Source: Natronomonas marina
GTDB taxonomy: Archaea; Halobacteriota; Halobacteria; Halobacteriales; Haloarculaceae
NCBI RefSeq assembly: GCF_024298905.1
Contig: NZ_CP101154.1
Span: 558,001-622,000 of the forward strand
DNA: 64,000 bases
Direction of reading: 5' to 3'
The notes below the pieces were generated by a model. The model was not told where the DNA came from and searched no databases. It saw nothing but the letters and a program-made list of their open reading frames with translations. The first letter of the stretch is position 1; every line of letters starts with the position of its first letter. Positions 46,144 to 52,578 of this stretch are shown here, piece by piece. The position numbers were made by a program, and so were the translations under genes.

Positions 46144-46179
46144 TTTCGCGGGCGTCTCGTTTCGCGGTCGCCGAGCAGC

Positions 46180-46520
46180 GTGAAGTGCTTCGGGGTCAAG
46201 TGGTTCGAGAATCGAAGATTCTCGTCATCACGAGAGAGCTCCGCTCTCTCGAACGACCCCGAGGCTTCTTGTTTCCACGACGCACTTTGCAGATTCCACG
46301 GCGGAATCCACAGGGAGCGCAGTCTCCGCAGGCGTGGATTCGGCCTCTCCCAGACCTACTTGGTGGCGACGGCGGCGCGTCCGACCGTCCGTGTTTTTGG
46401 ACTTGAAGCCGGAGGCACGTTGTGCCGTCACACTCCATCATTCAGCATCTTGCAACTTAATGGCTTGTGCCATTACGTGTCGGCTTCATCCACGGGGTCA
46501 AGCCCCGTGGCATTCGCCTT
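46180..46520 (-). pseudogene. Remnant of an IS1341-type tnpB element, minus strand
   Basis: No intact gene. Reading the minus strand, about 46431-46228 encodes a tail with STPAETALPVDSAVESAKCVVETRSLG, closely resembling the C-terminal tail of many haloarchaeal TnpB proteins as I remember them. Downstream are hairpins GAGAGCGGAGCTCTC and GAGAATCTTCGATTCTC, as in a transposon right end. Upstream is a perfect hairpin CCACGGGG-TCAAG-CCCCGTGG (46490-46510) followed on the minus strand by GAAGCCGACAC, a motif found in the other two elements of this window. An internal deletion derivative is the simplest reading. Confidence 0.55.
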
Positions 46521-46573
46521 GCAATTCTGTAAACCTGCCCGCGAAGTCTTCCGAACAGAACGGAGAAGCCTTA

Positions 46574-46650
46574 CTACTCGGTGTAGAAGACGAACACCTG
46601 TCCCACTTCTTCACGCTGAATCTCTCCTTTCGAACGGCGCGTTCAGCAGC
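46574..46650 (-). pseudogene. 3' part of a relic restriction-modification gene (winged-helix C-terminus)
   Basis: On the minus strand this reads EIQREEVGQVFVFYTE and a stop (46574-46576), matching NEIKREKVGRAFVFYIE at the end of the intact winged-helix gene at 50618. Similarity continues, with a small frameshift, to about 46647 (LLNAPF against RLDTLF). The tnpB element then interrupts it; the 5' part resumes at 48202. It is the far side of the insertion. Confidence 0.75.
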
Positions 46651-46866
46651 TTCGAGGCGGAGCCTCCGGCCTCAAGGAGCGAGGGCTTCCGACTGGTCGG
46701 AAGCACGAAGCGAGTGGGCCGGGGAGGACAGCGAGGCGCGGAGCGCCTCGGGCCGTGCGAGCGGGCAGAGCCCGCGCGCAGAAGCCGACACTCGGTGACG
46801 CAAATGACGGGACTGTAGCTGTCCGACTCCCGGATTATTAAGTATCGCCGAAACAAGATCTGAAAT

Positions 46867-48121
46867 ATGGAGGTCAGACGAACCGCGCCGGTCAAACTCG
46901 TTGTTCCCGACGAGTACCACGAGGACCTCCACGAAACCGCCGAGCAATTCCTATACTGCGTGAAAGAAGCCAGTGACTACTGCTGGGACAATACAGATTA
47001 CGAAGACTGTATCACCTCGAACGTGACAGCCAGGGATGCGCTGTACGACCGACTCCGCGAGGAAACTGACCTGACAGCGAATCTCGTCCAAGAAGCCATC
47101 CGGCGTGCCGTCCACGCGGTTGATAGTGGCGTTGACCGCTGGAAGAAAGGCAAACGGACGAACAAACCAGCGTTCACCTCTTGGAGTGTGGTCTACGACA
47201 AGCGCAGTGCGACGTTCTACCGCAACAAAATCTCACTTTCGACGGTGAACGGACGCATCCAGTGTGAGTTTGAACTCCCAGCAGATGGTCCAACACCATA
47301 CGAGGAGTACGTCCTTTCGGACAACTACGAGTTTCGCACGAGCACACTCCAGTACGACCAAGCAACCGACGAGTTCTACTTCCATGTCAAAACACGGAAG
47401 ACAGACGACGAAGGCGAGGCCCTCGAAGTTGAGATTCGGACGATACCGGGCACCAAACAGTCCTCGGGATCGACCTCGGCGTGAACAGTCTCGCCGTTAC
47501 GTCAACAGGCACGTTCTGGAGCGGTGACGAATACGACCACTGGATACAGGAGTTCGAGAAGCGCCGGGCCGAGATGCAACAGCGTGGGACGCAAGCCGCT
47601 CATAACGCCTTGCTGCGGCTTGGAAAGCGCGAAACAGCATGGCGGAAACAGTATATCATACAGTCGCCAACGAGATCGTTGCTGAAGCGGTTGACCACGA
47701 CTGCGACGTGATTGTGTTCGAGGACCTGACCGACATTCGAGAGCGGCTGCCCCACGCCGACTGGCATCACATCTGGGCATTTCGCCGTCTTGTTGAGTAC
47801 GTCGAGTACAAAGCTCCAGAACGCGGTGTCGCGGTTGAACAGGTCGACCCCGACCACACCAGCCAGCGGTGTTCGCACACCGACTGTGGGTTTACTCACG
47901 AAGACAACCGCGACGGCGAGCAGTTCCGGTGTTCGAAATGCGGGTACGAAATCAACGCAGATTATAACGGCGCGAAAAACGTCGGACTGCGATATATGCG
48001 GAAGCGACAACACAGACTGCGTTCCTCGCCCACGTCGGGGAGCGCAGACGCACCAGTAGACGTGCGTGTAAATGGTGGGATGTTGAACGGCGACGGCTAT
48101 CGGCCACCCGCCGACAGCTGA
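46867..48121 (+). pseudogene. tnpB: tnpB, RNA-guided nuclease of IS1341-type element, disrupted by two frameshifts
   Basis: The N-terminal part (46867-47450) is in frame 1 (MEVRRTAPVKLVVPDEY...). The frame must change near 47440-47455 to continue into TVLGIDLGVNSLAV, and again near 47657 (one base missing before HTVANEIV) to reach the C-terminal part ending in [15 protein letters not shown] at 48121. All RuvC acidic positions ([21 protein letters not shown]) and the zinc ribbon (CSHTDC, CSKCG) survive, so decay is recent. TATA-like ATTATTAAG about 27 nt before the ATG. The length if repaired is normal for TnpB. Confidence 0.85.
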
Positions 48122-48201
48122 TCGCCGGGCGTCCACATCAAAGCCCCTCCCTCAAGAACCGAGGCGCGTATGCGCCGAGGGAGTAGGGAGGGGTAGTTTA
48201 C
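48040..48201 (+). ncRNA. Probable omega/sotRNA region at the tnpB 3' end
   Basis: In IS200/IS605 and IS1341 elements the RNA guide scaffold is made from the end of tnpB and the right end; overlapping sense RNAs at this place are known in Halobacterium. Here the tnpB end and the right-end hairpin (48144-48193) are intact and the same two pieces are retained in the tnpB-less copy at 62150-62340. The guide would be the flank to the right of about 48201. No transcript evidence. Confidence 0.4.
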
Positions 48202-48336
48202 TCGTCCGTATGCGAGGTCGCAGGAACAGCCCACCCTCTCCGCGACGTTCGAGTTCTGGTCTATAATCCGGTTGAACTCCTCGAGGTCCGGTTTCCACCC
48301 GCTCCAGTAGTCCGGCGGGTCTCCGACACGGCCCAC
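48202..48336 (-). pseudogene. 5' part of a relic chimeric restriction gene (endonuclease N-terminus fused to winged-helix middle)
   Basis: Minus-strand reading gives PPDYWSGWKPDLEEFNRIIDQNSN, matching PPDYWNDWRLDPEEFNRIIDDNSN of the intact endonuclease at 51766. It continues in frame as VAERVGCSCDLAYGR, matching VAEYVGCSYDLAYRR of the intact winged-helix gene at 50618. The switch falls at a CGTTCGA heptamer present in both parents. DNA similarity to the endonuclease upstream region extends to about 48394 (CGTTTACAGCCC...ATTGAAAGGAAC). So this is a deletion scar of a second copy of the system, later split by the tnpB element. Confidence 0.78.
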
Positions 48337-48500
48337 GATACGGTGCTGCTGTTGTGTACGACGTTTACAGCCCGGATTGAAAGGAACATACAGGAACGAA
48401 CGTCACGCCGACTGCATCAGTGACACCTCCTGCACCGGGGCTGTGATCCTAACCCGAGCACGGCGACGTCGCCAAGACAGGGAAGCAGAGCGGTCGACAG

Positions 48501-48530
48501 ACTTATTTGAACAGCTGCTAAATCGTTCAA
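48501..48530 (+). promoter_or_regulatory. arsR promoter with inverted-repeat operator
   Basis: TATA-like ACTTATTT (48501-48508) lies about 28 nt before the ATG at 48533. Between them TTGAAC (48507-48512) and GTTCAA (48525-48530) form a perfect inverted repeat with a 12-nt spacer, overlapping the TATA edge and reaching the start codon. This is the place and form expected for ArsR/SmtB autoregulation. Confidence 0.6.
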
Positions 48531-48532
48531 CC

Positions 48533-48931
48533 ATGTCGCAGGAGACCGAACGCCTCCGCCGGTACATGACACAGCAGGTCGGGGACTGCTGTGAGGCGGA
48601 CGTCGAGACCCGCATCGAGACTCTCCGGGGATACCGGTCGGACGCCGGGTCGGCGCCCGACGAGGACCGAACCGCGCTGAAGACGCTCGGCGACGAGACG
48701 CGTCACCGCATCGTCCGACTGCTCGTCGCGGCCGGGGAGGAACTGTGTGTCTGTGAGATAACGCCCGCCGTCGACGTGAGCGACAGCGCCATCAGTCACG
48801 CGCTCTCGGACCTCTACGACGCCGGCCTCGTCGCCCGTCGCAAGGAGGGACGGTGGCGCCACTACGAGGCGACCCCCCGCGCCGAGGCACTGCTGGGGGC
48901 GCTCGACGCGACCCGGGGGGACCGCCAGTGA
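48533..48931 (+). CDS. arsR: ArsR/SmtB family arsenic- or metal-responsive repressor
   Basis: 132 residues. Winged helix with TLGDETRHRIVRLLVAAGEELCVCEI; the C72-x-C74 pair in the recognition-helix region is the classical arsenite/antimonite site, and an extra CC pair lies at 19-20. SDSAISHALSDLYDAGLV is the DNA-reading helix. It overlaps the next gene by 4 bases, indicating one operon with the arsenate-reductase-like phosphatase. The start is fixed by the TATA spacing. Confidence 0.88.
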   Translation: MSQETERLRRYMTQQVGDCCEADVETRIETLRGYRSDAGSAPDEDRTALKTLGDETRHRIVRLLVAAGEELCVCEITPAVDVSDSAISHALSDLYDAGLVARRKEGRWRHYEATPRAEALLGALDATRGDRQ

Positions 48932-49377
48932 GCGACGACGGCGGTCCAGTCCGGGTCGCGTTCGTTTGCGTCCGGAACGCCGGCCGCTCGCAGATGGCGA
49001 CCGCCTTCGCCGAGGTCGAGCGCGAACGCCGCGGTCTCGCCGACGCCGTCGAGGTACTGACCGGCGGAACGCGTCCCGCAGAACGCGTCCACGAGGAGGT
49101 CGTGACCGTGATGGAGGAAGCGGGGGTCGACCTCTCGGGCACTGTTCCGCGGGCCATCACGACCGGGGAACTCGAGTCCTGCGAGTACGTCGCAACCATG
49201 GGCTGTTCGACGCTGGAACTCGACGCGGACGCGTCCGGCGTCGACGTCCGCGAGTGGGCGCTGACCGACCCCGACGGTCGGCCGCTCGAGGACGTGCGCG
49301 AGATCCGCGAGGAGGTCCGGGCACGCGTCGGCGACCTCTTCGACGAGATCGAGCGGGAGGCGACGACGAGTGTCTGA
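48928..49377 (+). CDS. arsC: Low-molecular-weight protein tyrosine phosphatase/arsenate reductase
   Basis: 149 residues. The P-loop CVRNAGRS (C14-x5-R20) begins directly after the first strand, as in thioredoxin-type ArsC and LMW-PTP. The GTG start overlaps the arsR stop. With an ArsR partner an arsenate reductase role is most likely, though the sequence alone cannot exclude a phosphatase. No arsenite efflux gene (arsB/acr3) is recognised next to it. Confidence 0.85.
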   Translation: MSDDGGPVRVAFVCVRNAGRSQMATAFAEVERERRGLADAVEVLTGGTRPAERVHEEVVTVMEEAGVDLSGTVPRAITTGELESCEYVATMGCSTLELDADASGVDVREWALTDPDGRPLEDVREIREEVRARVGDLFDEIEREATTSV

Positions 49378-49453
49378 TCCCGACCCGGGCGACCACCCGG
49401 GGACCAACTCGGGCGACGACGGCTGGCGACTCGTCCGAGAGCGGGACGGGTAG
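49370..49453 (+). CDS. 27-residue reading frame between arsC and the membrane protein gene
   Basis: A GTG inside the arsC tail opens VSDPDPGDHPGTNSGDDG and ends WRLVRERDG two bases before the next gene. The composition is acidic as in real proteins here, and the tight spacing bridges two genes, but it is very short and may be only a coupling peptide or chance. Confidence 0.22.
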   Translation: MSDPDPGDHPGTNSGDDGWRLVRERDG

Positions 49454-49455
49454 CC

Positions 49456-50508
49456 GTGGCGGTTTCGGACCTCTGGGCGGTCGGGATGGTGCTGGCCGCC
49501 TTCGCCGGCGGCGCCTTCGGCGCGAGCGTCGGGGCGCTACCGTCGTTTTCGCTTGCGGGGCTGATGGTGGTCGTCGGCGAACTCTACGAACTCGTCGGCC
49601 GGGCGTCGGGCGCGGAGACGCTCCCGGTCGATATCACGGGGTCGATCGCGTTCGGCGTCGTGCTGGGTCCCCACGTCGCGTTCGGGGGCGGCGCCGCCGC
49701 GCTGGCCTACGCGACGAGGCGGGGTTACCTCGACACCGACTTCGACTACCACCAGGCAAAGGAAGTGACACGCGGACTCGGGAACAGACCGGACGTGCTC
49801 GCTGTCGGCGGGCTGTTCGGCGTCGTCGGCTACTGGATCGCCACGCTGTCGGCAAGCCTCTCGGTCCCGGTCGACCCCGTCGCGCTGGGCGTGGTCGGGT
49901 CGGCGGTCGCACACCGGCTGGCGTTCGGCTACAGCCTCGTCGGTGCGCGACCGGCCCGGTGGTTCGACATGGAACCGTTCGAGCAGGGGGTCTCGGGGGA
50001 CGAGGGGAGACTCGCCGACGGCGGCTCGCGGACCGTCGAGCCGTGGCTCCCCTACCAGTACCGGTGGGGCGACGTCGCGGCACTCGGAGCGGTCGTCGGG
50101 ATTCTCGGCGGCTACGTCGCCTGGCTGACGGCGAGTCCGTTCCTCGCGTTCGGTATCAGCGTCGTCGCGCTGGTCTTCCTCAACGCGGGCGTGGCCGAGG
50201 TGCCGGTGACCCACCACGCCTCGCTGCCCGCCAGCACCGCGGTGCTGGCGCTGGTCGACGCCCCGGCCGGCGCGTTGACGCCGGCGCTCGTGGCGGGTGC
50301 GGTGCCGCTGGAGACGGCGCTCCTCGTCGGTGGTGCGTTCGGCGTTCTCGGGTCCCTGTTCGGTGAAGTCGCCCAGCGCGTCCTCTACGCCCACGCCGAG
50401 ACGCACCTCGACCCACCGGCGGCGAGCATCGTCGTCACCTCGCTGTGTATCGGCCTGCTGGCGATGGCGGGCGTCCTGCCGTCGTCGGTGTGGATCCCGC
50501 TCCCGTGA
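49456..50508 (+). CDS. Integral membrane protein downstream of arsR-arsC
   Basis: 350 residues with about nine hydrophobic helices, a soluble loop with FDYHQAKEVTRGLGNRPDV, and a second with ARWFDMEPFEQG. GTG start at 49456. It follows the ars genes in the same direction with about 80 bp and a tiny frame in between, so it may be co-transcribed. It does not show ArsB or Acr3 motifs that I can recognise, so an arsenic role is speculation from context. Confidence 0.7.
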   Translation: MAVSDLWAVGMVLAAFAGGAFGASVGALPSFSLAGLMVVVGELYELVGRASGAETLPVDITGSIAFGVVLGPHVAFGGGAAALAYATRRGYLDTDFDYHQAKEVTRGLGNRPDVLAVGGLFGVVGYWIATLSASLSVPVDPVALGVVGSAVAHRLAFGYSLVGARPARWFDMEPFEQGVSGDEGRLADGGSRTVEPWLPYQYRWGDVAALGAVVGILGGYVAWLTASPFLAFGISVVALVFLNAGVAEVPVTHHASLPASTAVLALVDAPAGALTPALVAGAVPLETALLVGGAFGVLGSLFGEVAQRVLYAHAETHLDPPAASIVVTSLCIGLLAMAGVLPSSVWIPLP

Positions 50509-50617
50509 ACGGACCGGCTCCCGCGTGCGGACGTCGGTCCGAATCGAAGCCCCAGTTCGTTCTCTCGCGGTCGAGTCGCCCCGTCGACGCGCACTGTATC
50601 GACCAGGACTGCCACAG

Positions 50618-50842
50618 TCACTCGATATAAAATACGAACGCCCGTCCGACCTTCTCCCGCTTGATTTCGTTGTCGCCGAACAGCGTGTCGAGGCGGCGGT
50701 ACGCCAGGTCGTACGAGCACCCGACGTACTCCGCGACGTTCGACGTGGACGCGACGTGGAGTGACTCGACCGCTTCGACGAACGCGTCGTCGGGGTAGTC
50801 CTCCTCGAACCGCCCCGCATCGTCTCGCTTCTCCTCGTCCAT
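50618..50842 (-). CDS. Winged-helix protein of the restriction-modification locus
   Basis: 74 residues: acidic start, then VESLHVASTSNVAEYVGCSYDLAYRRLDTLF (helix-turn-helix) and a wing NEIKREKVGRAFVFYIE. The ATG at 50842 lies about 27 nt after a TATA-like CTTTATCA (50868-50875), favoured over an upstream TTG. Divergent from the methyltransferase gene. Position and fold suggest the controller of the system. A relic of this gene is fused to an endonuclease fragment at 46574-48336. Confidence 0.75.
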   Translation of the reverse strand: MDEEKRDDAGRFEEDYPDDAFVEAVESLHVASTSNVAEYVGCSYDLAYRRLDTLFGDNEIKREKVGRAFVFYIE

Positions 50843-50867
50843 ACCTGTCGACTCGTAACACCAACTG

Positions 50868-50921
50868 ATAAAGCGACACACATCCTCACCGTTCAATTCA
50901 AACTTGAACGGGTAGCTTTAA
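50868..50921. promoter_or_regulatory. Divergent promoter region of the restriction-modification system with palindrome
   Basis: Two TATA-like boxes point outward: 50868-50875 for the winged-helix gene and 50914-50920 (CTTTAAC) for the methyltransferase gene. Between them GTTCAA (50891-50896) and TTGAAC (50904-50909) form a perfect inverted repeat, with a second nested TTCAA-AC-TTGAA. This is a good candidate operator controlling both directions. Confidence 0.6.
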
Positions 50922-50950
50922 CCTATCGCGCCAACACTGATTACAACGGG

Positions 50951-51769
50951 ATGAGTGAAACCGAAGGTCACGCCGACGAATCACGGCTCGTCACCGACTT
51001 CAGCGGTGACGTATCTCTCGACGAGTTCCGTCTCGACGGGACCGTACAGACGACACTAACGAAGGGCGAAGAGGAGGAACTCGTCCTGTCTGCCTATCGG
51101 GAACGGAACGACGAGGTGTTCCCGCGAGTCCTCGACCTGCACGTCGAGGAGGGGGCAACCATCGCGGACGTGACCTACGGCAAAGGTGTCTTCTGGAAGA
51201 ACGTCGACTTCGGGCAGTACGACGTGTACGCGTCCGACTTGTCCGCCGAGAAGTCCCCGTCGGGGTATCCGGTTGATTGTCGCAACCTCCCCTACGAAGA
51301 CGACTTCCTCGATGTAGTCGTCTTAGATCCACCGTACGCGGAAGGATTCTTCCGCAAGAACGAAGATATGCTCGCTGGCGGGGACAGTTCTCACTCTCAG
51401 TTCCGCGAGAATTACAGCAACGGGGAGGTTCTGGATACGCGCGGGTCGAAGTACCACCAAGCAGTATTCGACCTGTACGCCGAAGCCGGGATCGAGGCAC
51501 AGCGCGTGCTGAAGAACGACGGAACACTCATCGTCAAAACGCAGGACGAAGTGAGCGCGAACACCCAGGAGCTCACCCACGTCCAGATTACGAACTTCTA
51601 CGAATCGAAACTGGGGATGTATACGAAGGACCTGTTCGTCGTCGTGCGGTCGAACAGACCCGCGGTTTCGGGGATGAACCGACAGGTTCACGCCCGCAAG
51701 AACCACTCCTACTTCCTCGTGTACGAACTGGACGGAACTCCCACAAACACGCTGGAATCGAACATCTAA
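50951..51769 (+). CDS. DNA methyltransferase (N6-adenine/N4-cytosine type) of a restriction-modification system
   Basis: 272 residues. SAM-binding motif I is near residues 70-80 (ATIADVTYGKGVFW), the catalytic motif IV is DPPY at 126-129, and VLKNDGTLIVKTQDEV is a later core strand. Motif I precedes IV, so it is of the alpha/gamma order, but no separate target-recognition domain is obvious in this short protein. Tail-to-tail with the endonuclease gene (4-base overlap). Less GC-rich than its neighbours, suggesting transfer. Confidence 0.85.
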   Translation: MSETEGHADESRLVTDFSGDVSLDEFRLDGTVQTTLTKGEEEELVLSAYRERNDEVFPRVLDLHVEEGATIADVTYGKGVFWKNVDFGQYDVYASDLSAEKSPSGYPVDCRNLPYEDDFLDVVVLDPPYAEGFFRKNEDMLAGGDSSHSQFRENYSNGEVLDTRGSKYHQAVFDLYAEAGIEAQRVLKNDGTLIVKTQDEVSANTQELTHVQITNFYESKLGMYTKDLFVVVRSNRPAVSGMNRQVHARKNHSYFLVYELDGTPTNTLESNI

Positions 51770-52434
51770 TTTCGCTCTTGGAGCACTTCGTCCATCAGGG
51801 CCGACAGGTCATCGGTGTAGGGGTCCTCGACCGGAATCTCGAATTTCGGCTGTGATTTCGAGAGTTTCTGCCTCAGTCCCTCGGGATAGTTCCCTTTCGA
51901 CCGCGGAAGGTCGGTGACTCTGACGAACGCGAAATCCCACTCGTCTTTGACTTCGTACAGGTTCACGGCTATAATGTCAATATCGCTGTTTTCGACGTCC
52001 ATCAGTACCGTGCTGTACGTTTCTCCGTCGTGTTCGATGTCGCGCGGATCACTGGAGCCCTTGAGATGGAACCCGACTTCGATTTTCCTGTCCCCCTCGG
52101 TGAGTGTCGTCTGGTTTTCATCCACGTCGGGAACGGTTCGGCTCTGGAGGCTCTTCACCTCGATTTTCATCGGCTCACCCTTGTACGTGAATGCCCAGTC
52201 GCCCTTGTCGCTCTCGTCTTGGTCGTCGGGCGTGCGGATGTCTTCGATGGCGGGATCGTCTTCGAGATACATCTCGCGCATCCGTTCTTCGGCCACGTAG
52301 CCGAAGATTGCGCTGAGGGCGTTCGAGTTGTCGTCGATTATCCGGTTGAACTCCTCGGGGTCCAGCCGCCAGTCGTTCCAGTAGTCCGGAGGGTTCTCGT
52401 CAGGCACGTCACGGGATTGCTGTGCAGTTTTCAA
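51766..52434 (-). CDS. PD-(D/E)XK restriction endonuclease
   Basis: 222 residues. The nuclease core is D79 in KGDWAFTY and E92-x-K94 in MKIEVKSL, the canonical D...ExK pattern; further strands follow in DIDIIAVNLYEV and WDFAFVRV. The N-terminal PPDYWNDWRLDPEEFNRIIDD is repeated in the relic at 48.3 kb. Paired tail to tail with a DNA methyltransferase, so restriction is the most likely role. The recognition site is unknown. Confidence 0.78.
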   Translation of the reverse strand: MKTAQQSRDVPDENPPDYWNDWRLDPEEFNRIIDDNSNALSAIFGYVAEERMREMYLEDDPAIEDIRTPDDQDESDKGDWAFTYKGEPMKIEVKSLQSRTVPDVDENQTTLTEGDRKIEVGFHLKGSSDPRDIEHDGETYSTVLMDVENSDIDIIAVNLYEVKDEWDFAFVRVTDLPRSKGNYPEGLRQKLSKSQPKFEIPVEDPYTDDLSALMDEVLQERN

Positions 52435-52578
52435 GAATGGCGCTTACATCCGAAATTGAACCGAAATATCGCAGGGAGCCACACCACGTAGTCGTGCGTG
52501 GTCGATCCTCGGTGAGAAAGACGGGGGATGCGGCACGAGTGTAGTGCGATCCCCGCCGCCCGACGGCACCGCAGCGTT

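Follow-up and report, generated by a model that had tools for sequence, protein, structure and literature searches.

Our analysis of a three-gene locus of the haloarchaeon Natronomonas marina suggests that it very probably encodes a Type IIP restriction-modification (R-M) system of the NruI/Sbo13I family, most likely directed at TCGCGA and run by a winged-helix controller protein that acts through two operators. Moreover, the relatives of this controller make it likely that a dedicated haloarchaeal lineage of winged-helix restriction controllers exists, distinct from the HTH_3 C proteins of bacteria in origin and joined to three or more mutually unrelated Type II pairs (NruI-, DpnII- and BamHI-type), in each case via a two-operator circuit with a perfect palindrome at the controller and methyltransferase promoters and a degenerate copy at the endonuclease promoter (the latter at least for the NruI- and DpnII-type systems).

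The locus lies in a stretch of 64,000 nucleotides (contig NZ_CP101154.1, positions 558,001 to 622,000), hereafter referred to as the window. The three open reading frames that the original prediction had described, for a controller (C), a methyltransferase (M) and an endonuclease (R), are present as stated apart from the start of R (Table 1), and the lower GC content that it had remarked upon is likewise found (57.1% for the trio versus 68.9% for the window). C is divergent from M, while M and R are convergent and overlap tail to tail by 4 bp (51766-51769). The reading frame proposed for R is real, but its start was probably placed too far upstream: translation from GTG 52407 (213 residues) is more likely than from TTG 52434, since the orthologues begin at the position of the GTG and the operator at the R promoter then ends exactly 33 bp before the start, as it does in three related haloarchaeal loci (L010, L011 and L012).

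Table 1. Features of the R-M locus and of the island that contains it (positions in the window).
Feature	Position	Strand	Description and basis
Island	46144..52578	.	6.4 kb, between ferredoxin and isochorismatase genes; comparison with genus-mates
Relic of second copy	48200..48336	-	internal C fragment fused to R N-terminus, no intact M
R-promoter operator kept by relic	48362..48384	-	CCTTTCAATCCGGGCTGTAAACG
C	50618..50842	-	74-aa winged-helix controller; open reading frame with ATG start
Putative TATA box of C	50866..50873	-	minus-strand CTTTATC; inferred from sequence
Operator at divergent C/M promoters	50889..50911	.	CCGTTCAA-N7-TTGAACGG; perfect 8-bp arms, 23-bp palindrome; shared by 5 loci
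Putative TATA box of M	50916..50921	+	4-5 bp downstream of operator, TTTA invariant in 5 loci; inferred from sequence
M	50951..51769	+	DPPY amino-methyltransferase, M.NruI/M.Sbo13I subgroup, 272 aa, VVLDPPY; open reading frame and homology
R	51766..52407	-	PD-(D/E)XK restriction endonuclease, NruI/Sbo13I family, 213 aa; from GTG 52407
R, long reading	51766..52434	-	from TTG
Degenerate operator at R promoter	52441..52463	-	CGGTTCAATTTCGGATGTAAGCG; ends 33 bp before GTG 52407; leave-one-out p 0.0025

The trio forms part of an island that separates two genes which lie only 67 bp (G288) and about 106 bp (G099) apart in genus-mates. Besides the trio, the island contains a TnpB-like gene, a decayed second copy of the system (the relic), ArsR- and ArsC-like genes and a membrane protein (neighbours named from their open reading frames). 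The TnpB-like gene (IS200/IS605-type, 46867-48121), which is split across frames and adjoins the relic, may have helped to bring the island in. The relic itself lies 2.3 kb from the trio, to whose intact genes it is about 78-79% identical at the nucleotide level; the joint between its C and R portions is a 7-bp repeat, CGTTCGA, which is present in both genes.

The enzymes and their predicted target

By homology, R and M are previously undescribed archaeal representatives of an established family, forming an NruI/Sbo13I-type (TCG^CGA) Type II pair; NruI and Sbo13I were cloned and named in 2010 (PMC2890505). M shares 58% identity over 216 residues with M.Sbo13I (E 9e-85), covering the catalytic core with the DPPY motif common to both; it belongs to the DPPY gamma-like subgroup, in which the AdoMet motif precedes the catalytic motif, and matches phrog_24333 (E 2e-53) and PF01555 (E 4e-6), beyond which no close similarity to other curated methyltransferase families was found. 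R is 31% identical to Sbo13I (tblastn E 4e-16), and the homology of both proteins is nearly full-length. Protein-mode BLAST on plasmids located the same R/M pair on the Shigella plasmid pSB13, E. coli pYLPK5b and Leptospira pLiSL22, and a profile search of 84,980 genomes yielded 219 relatives of M, from which 80 cellular loci were retained; in most of these an R homologue adjoins M, usually in convergent orientation. It was by such protein-mode BLAST on plasmids and phages and by profile scans that relatives could be identified, where single-sequence pattern scans with R and M from the window returned nothing in genome or viral contigs. Searches of PDB sequences likewise gave no relatives of R or M, R has no match in Pfam or NCBIfam, and no typed system in PADLOC (2023) fits the locus, M obtaining only generic weak matches there (oMTase 8e-4, MTase_II 1e-3) and R and C none. 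The original prediction had seen in the enzymes no recognisable subtype and in the locus a candidate for an undescribed defence module; as far as the enzymes are concerned, neither view is supported, because R and M are homologous to NruI/Sbo13I over nearly their full length and the convergent R/M layout is that of pSB13.

Sbo13I, an isoschizomer of NruI that cuts TCG^CGA, is encoded on the 5.4-kb plasmid pSB13 of Shigella boydii C13, with convergent R and M genes and a controller gene before R; the methylated base is m6A for M.NruI and m4C for M.Sbo13I (PMC2890505). The locus described here resembles that of Sbo13I in its homologous enzymes (31% for R, 58% for M), in its convergent genes and in possessing a small regulator gene. 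However, sbo13IC is of the HTH_3/XRE type and located upstream of R in the same direction, whereas the controller in the window is a winged helix encoded divergently from M, and the promoters are archaeal. With NruI of Nocardia rubra (PMC2890505) the locus shares the enzyme family, the convergent layout and the PD-X21-EVK spacing, but NruI has no reported controller, and its R and M genes are separated by a gap of 326 bp instead of overlapping. Two further occurrences of the family may be recorded: Leptospira pLiSL22 carries a second copy (L007:4740-5241) with M intact and R in broken frames, the complete pair residing in L006, and the Mycobacterium phages Wheeler and Dallas carry a relative of M (L008:1408-2226 and L009:1399-2295, respectively) whose annotated neighbours include no R gene and which could protect the phage DNA against NruI-type restriction.

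The residues that had been singled out as the active site of R, D79, E92 and K94 (numbered from the TTG), occupy the positions originally given and are conserved in the family: among 72 members, D79 is Asp in 71, E92 is Glu in 63 (and Gln in 6), and K94 is Lys throughout. R fits the published PD-X21-EVK spacing of NruI exactly, but the upstream PD varies (PA in Natronomonas LN261, G049) while the acid in D79 (KGD, giving D-X12-E-V-K) is nearly invariant, so that D79 is the better candidate for the catalytic acid. The AlphaFold2 model of R, for which two plasmid-record rows of the alignment were left out, has a pLDDT of 90, and its best matches among solved structures (Foldseek) are I-Ssp6803I (E 8.7e-4) and then, with weaker scores, Hjc and R.SwaI, all of which are PD-(D/E)XK enzymes. 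That the R gene is nonetheless inactive, and that the locus persists as an orphan methyltransferase, would be in line with the decayed copy 2.3 kb away and with the existence of M genes lacking R (L013, L015), but is very improbable considering that the frame is open, the active site intact, the predicted fold confident and the promoter operator retained, and that the genome avoids TCGCGA.

An active TCGCGA enzyme would be expected to have cost its host many sites, and this expectation provides an indirect in silico test of specificity. The host genome (G000) contains 761 TCGCGA sites in 3.99 Mb, the lowest density among 20 Natronomonas genomes. In 400-kb genome samples evaluated against a maximal-order Markov expectation, the observed/expected ratio is 0.23, which makes TCGCGA the second lowest of the 64 six-base palindromes in the host, as compared with ratios of 0.78, 0.81 and 0.83 (rank 21-26 of 64) in three genus-mates. 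The trio itself is free of TCGCGA. Based on homology and site avoidance, TCGCGA is most likely the sequence recognised by R and M. The identity of R to Sbo13I is, however, only 31%, and members of the haloarchaeal R subclade (window, L010, L011, L012) are altered at PSLRG, DHDR and DASDRR, which are otherwise conserved in the family, so that the specificity could have drifted; furthermore, Natronomonas LN261 (G049) possesses the system and shows no depletion of TCGCGA (0.83), and hence the presence of the genes alone does not predict avoidance. It is thus conceivable that the enzymes, although relatives of NruI, now have a different target and that the depletion in the host has another cause. 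We consider this unlikely, since M, which is bound to share the specificity of R, is still 52-58% identical to M.Sbo13I as well as to its counterparts from phages and Leptospira, and since avoidance of TCGCGA ranks second in the host versus 21-26 in the three genus-mates. A recent arrival of the system in G049 would be a possible account of the missing depletion there. Other palindromes are scarce in the host as well (observed/expected 0.07 for CACGTG and 0.26 for AGCGCT); in the host samples (L203-L222), CACGTG is even more depleted than TCGCGA, which suggests that another active restriction system is present in this genome.

The proposed controller and its operators

The AlphaFold2 model of C is a winged helix (a1-a2-a3-wing; pLDDT 82), for which Foldseek returned many ArsR-, MarR- and PapI-like matches, none of them below E 0.001, and no HTH_3 match was obtained for C in Pfam, NCBIfam or PADLOC. 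Judged by its modelled fold, C is not a classical HTH_3/XRE C protein, as had been proposed from the sequence. C is divergent from M in all five complete haloarchaeal NruI-type loci, that is, in the window, L010 (Halorussus ruber), L011 (Natronomonas LN261), L012 and L014; it is absent from the bacterial NruI-type loci and from the vicinity of the two haloarchaeal M genes that lack an R partner (L013 and L015).

The C-M intergenic regions of these five loci have an element in common, CCrTTCAAT-N5-ATTGAAyGG, which is followed 4-5 bp on by TTTA. The element comprises 25.9 bits common to the five loci versus 17.5 +/- 0.5 in dinucleotide shuffles, and its arms are 81% identical between loci as compared with 28% for the left flanks, which argues against plain common inheritance of the entire region. 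A degenerate version precedes every R gene of the haloarchaeal NruI-type loci: scored with a model trained on the M-side sites alone, with the tested locus left out, the R-promoter sites yield p values of 0.0005-0.0025 each and, for six loci together, a Fisher value of 4e-12. The alternative description of the R-promoter element as a lone half-site was rejected in favour of a full-length degenerate operator. When the window and 400 kb of the host genome were scanned at the score of the R site in the window, only three places emerged (50889-50911, 52441-52463 and 48362-48384), all of them in the trio or its relic. A change in the operator also coincides with one in the controller: in L010, the arms are altered to TTAAA/TTTAA, and the recognition helix reads YNLAYQRL, as opposed to the otherwise near-invariant YDLAYRRL. 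When the whole class was searched for exact 23-bp operators (7-bp spacing), a design that misses the 22-bp version described below, nine sites emerged in 391 genomes, those in the host and in G049 being C-M intergenic; the other seven, with no C homologue nearby and mostly inside open reading frames, were treated as chance occurrences. Candidate operators for C are thus present at the promoters of the R-M genes that it accompanies, as would be expected of an R-M controller. They markedly strengthen the original claim of an R-M trio with its own winged-helix controller, and so does the occurrence of this controller family at two further restriction systems.

Related controllers at other restriction systems

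The closest relatives of C adjoin DpnII-type and BamHI-type systems, whose enzymes are unrelated. In L174-L180, C and a D12-class methyltransferase are encoded divergently, with a DpnII endonuclease (PF04556) present at six of the seven loci; in L181 and L188, C is located in front of a BamHI-family endonuclease (PF02923), and the divergently encoded methyltransferase belongs to PF01555. Every one of these loci has the same palindrome in its C-M intergenic region, and a degenerate operator is found 32-33 bp before R in the six DpnII-type loci (Fisher 1e-11). The operator is 23 bp long in the NruI-type and 22 bp in the DpnII- and BamHI-type systems, and the arm spacing agrees at the M and R promoters where both were examined (NruI- and DpnII-type). 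The DpnII-type (L174, L176-L180) and BamHI-type loci (L181, L188) share with the window the controller clade, the operator design and the divergence of C from M, but differ in the length of the operator and in their unrelated enzymes (PF02086 and PF04556 for the former, PF01555/HTH_3 and PF02923 for the latter). Of 382 genomes, two have a BamHI-family endonuclease, and C is present in both. The proposition that all haloarchaeal DpnII systems use C was rejected, as C is present in only 6 of the 10 genomes with the DpnII family; the coupling is therefore common rather than universal.

In a tree of the family, 14 restriction-linked C proteins fall on one side of a branch and 19 other family members on the other (support 89/83), and restriction linkage requires a single change versus 10.9 in shuffles. 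The controller apparently represents a new haloarchaeal lineage that is distinct from HTH_3. The wider winged-helix family is present in 295 of 391 Halobacteria genomes and, in the loci read, mostly away from restriction genes, so that C might in principle be an unrelated neighbour, one of many small haloarchaeal regulators, which has come to lie near M by chance. Such a coincidence is very improbable in view of (i) the identical divergent position in all five complete haloarchaeal loci, (ii) the linkage to three restriction families, (iii) the confinement of the restriction-linked members to one clade, and (iv) the operators at both the M and R promoters. Two proteins encoded near relatives of C deserve mention in their own right, namely an uncharacterised protein of ~216 residues without Pfam match (L174:3186-3836), which several haloarchaeal loci of the DpnII type encode between M and the endonuclease, and the product of a long open reading frame with an NPPY motif (L182:6957-10001), possibly a Type IIG enzyme, ~1.8 kb from a more distant relative of C.

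A proposed circuit and its significance

Restriction enzymes that appear before methylation can kill a new host, and bacteria often order the expression of R-M systems with HTH_3 controllers. In the circuit which we propose for the haloarchaeal locus, R would cut unmodified TCGCGA while M would protect the host's own sites. C, presumably a dimer, would bind to two sites: the perfect 23-bp palindrome, which separates the divergently oriented promoters of C and M and adjoins the BRE/TATA of M, and its weaker counterpart at the promoter of R. With the affinities that we infer for the two sites, the strong M/C site would be filled first and the weak R site only once C has accumulated, and this ordered occupancy would make methylation precede cutting whenever the system enters a new host. 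At high concentration, C would then activate R and feed back on C/M.

As for the sign of the regulation, each operator lies immediately upstream of BRE/TATA; from there, a bound protein may activate transcription or else repress it by excluding TFB. Our preferred reading, held with about even confidence, is that R is activated when C is abundant, because a pure repressor would leave R switched on at entry. A pure repressor would block BRE/TATA at both promoters and keep the system at a low level, with timing arising from enzyme kinetics rather than from C; bound protein could indeed exclude TFB at operators that abut TATA/BRE at both promoters, and the ArsR/MarR-like folds among the Foldseek matches belong mostly to repressors. 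We nevertheless regard repression as the somewhat less probable option, given that R would be expressed on entry, before C exists, and that several R promoters of NruI-type loci, inspected by eye, have no good TATA box and look activator-dependent.

The proposed circuit resembles those of the bacterial C proteins (e.g. Esp1396I, PvuII, Kpn2I) in that a small DNA-binding protein is combined with M and R operators of differing quality; the C protein of Esp1396I is reported to bind upstream of both the M and R genes (PMC3758141). However, the bacterial proteins belong to the helix-turn-helix C class, whereas the controller in the window has a winged-helix fold and an operator of its own, 22-23 bp long, that adjoins an archaeal TATA box. 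NruI, TCGCGA and controllers go unmentioned in the main text of two archaeal surveys (PMC10609329, PMC6471742), and winged-helix controllers are not mentioned in a review (PMC3874152). In the literature searched, we found neither an archaeal R-M controller circuit nor the present controller lineage, its operators or its use by three restriction families, although unnamed REBASE entries may exist.

The locus and its relatives provide archaeal candidate controllers with named operators at both promoters, and the question of timing thereby becomes testable in tractable haloarchaea. For annotation of the REBASE type, archaeal systems of the NruI, DpnII and BamHI types become recognisable, and a predicted blunt cutter is added that should work at high salt. 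Finally, a controller employed by unrelated restriction systems could show how archaea safely acquire dangerous enzymes.
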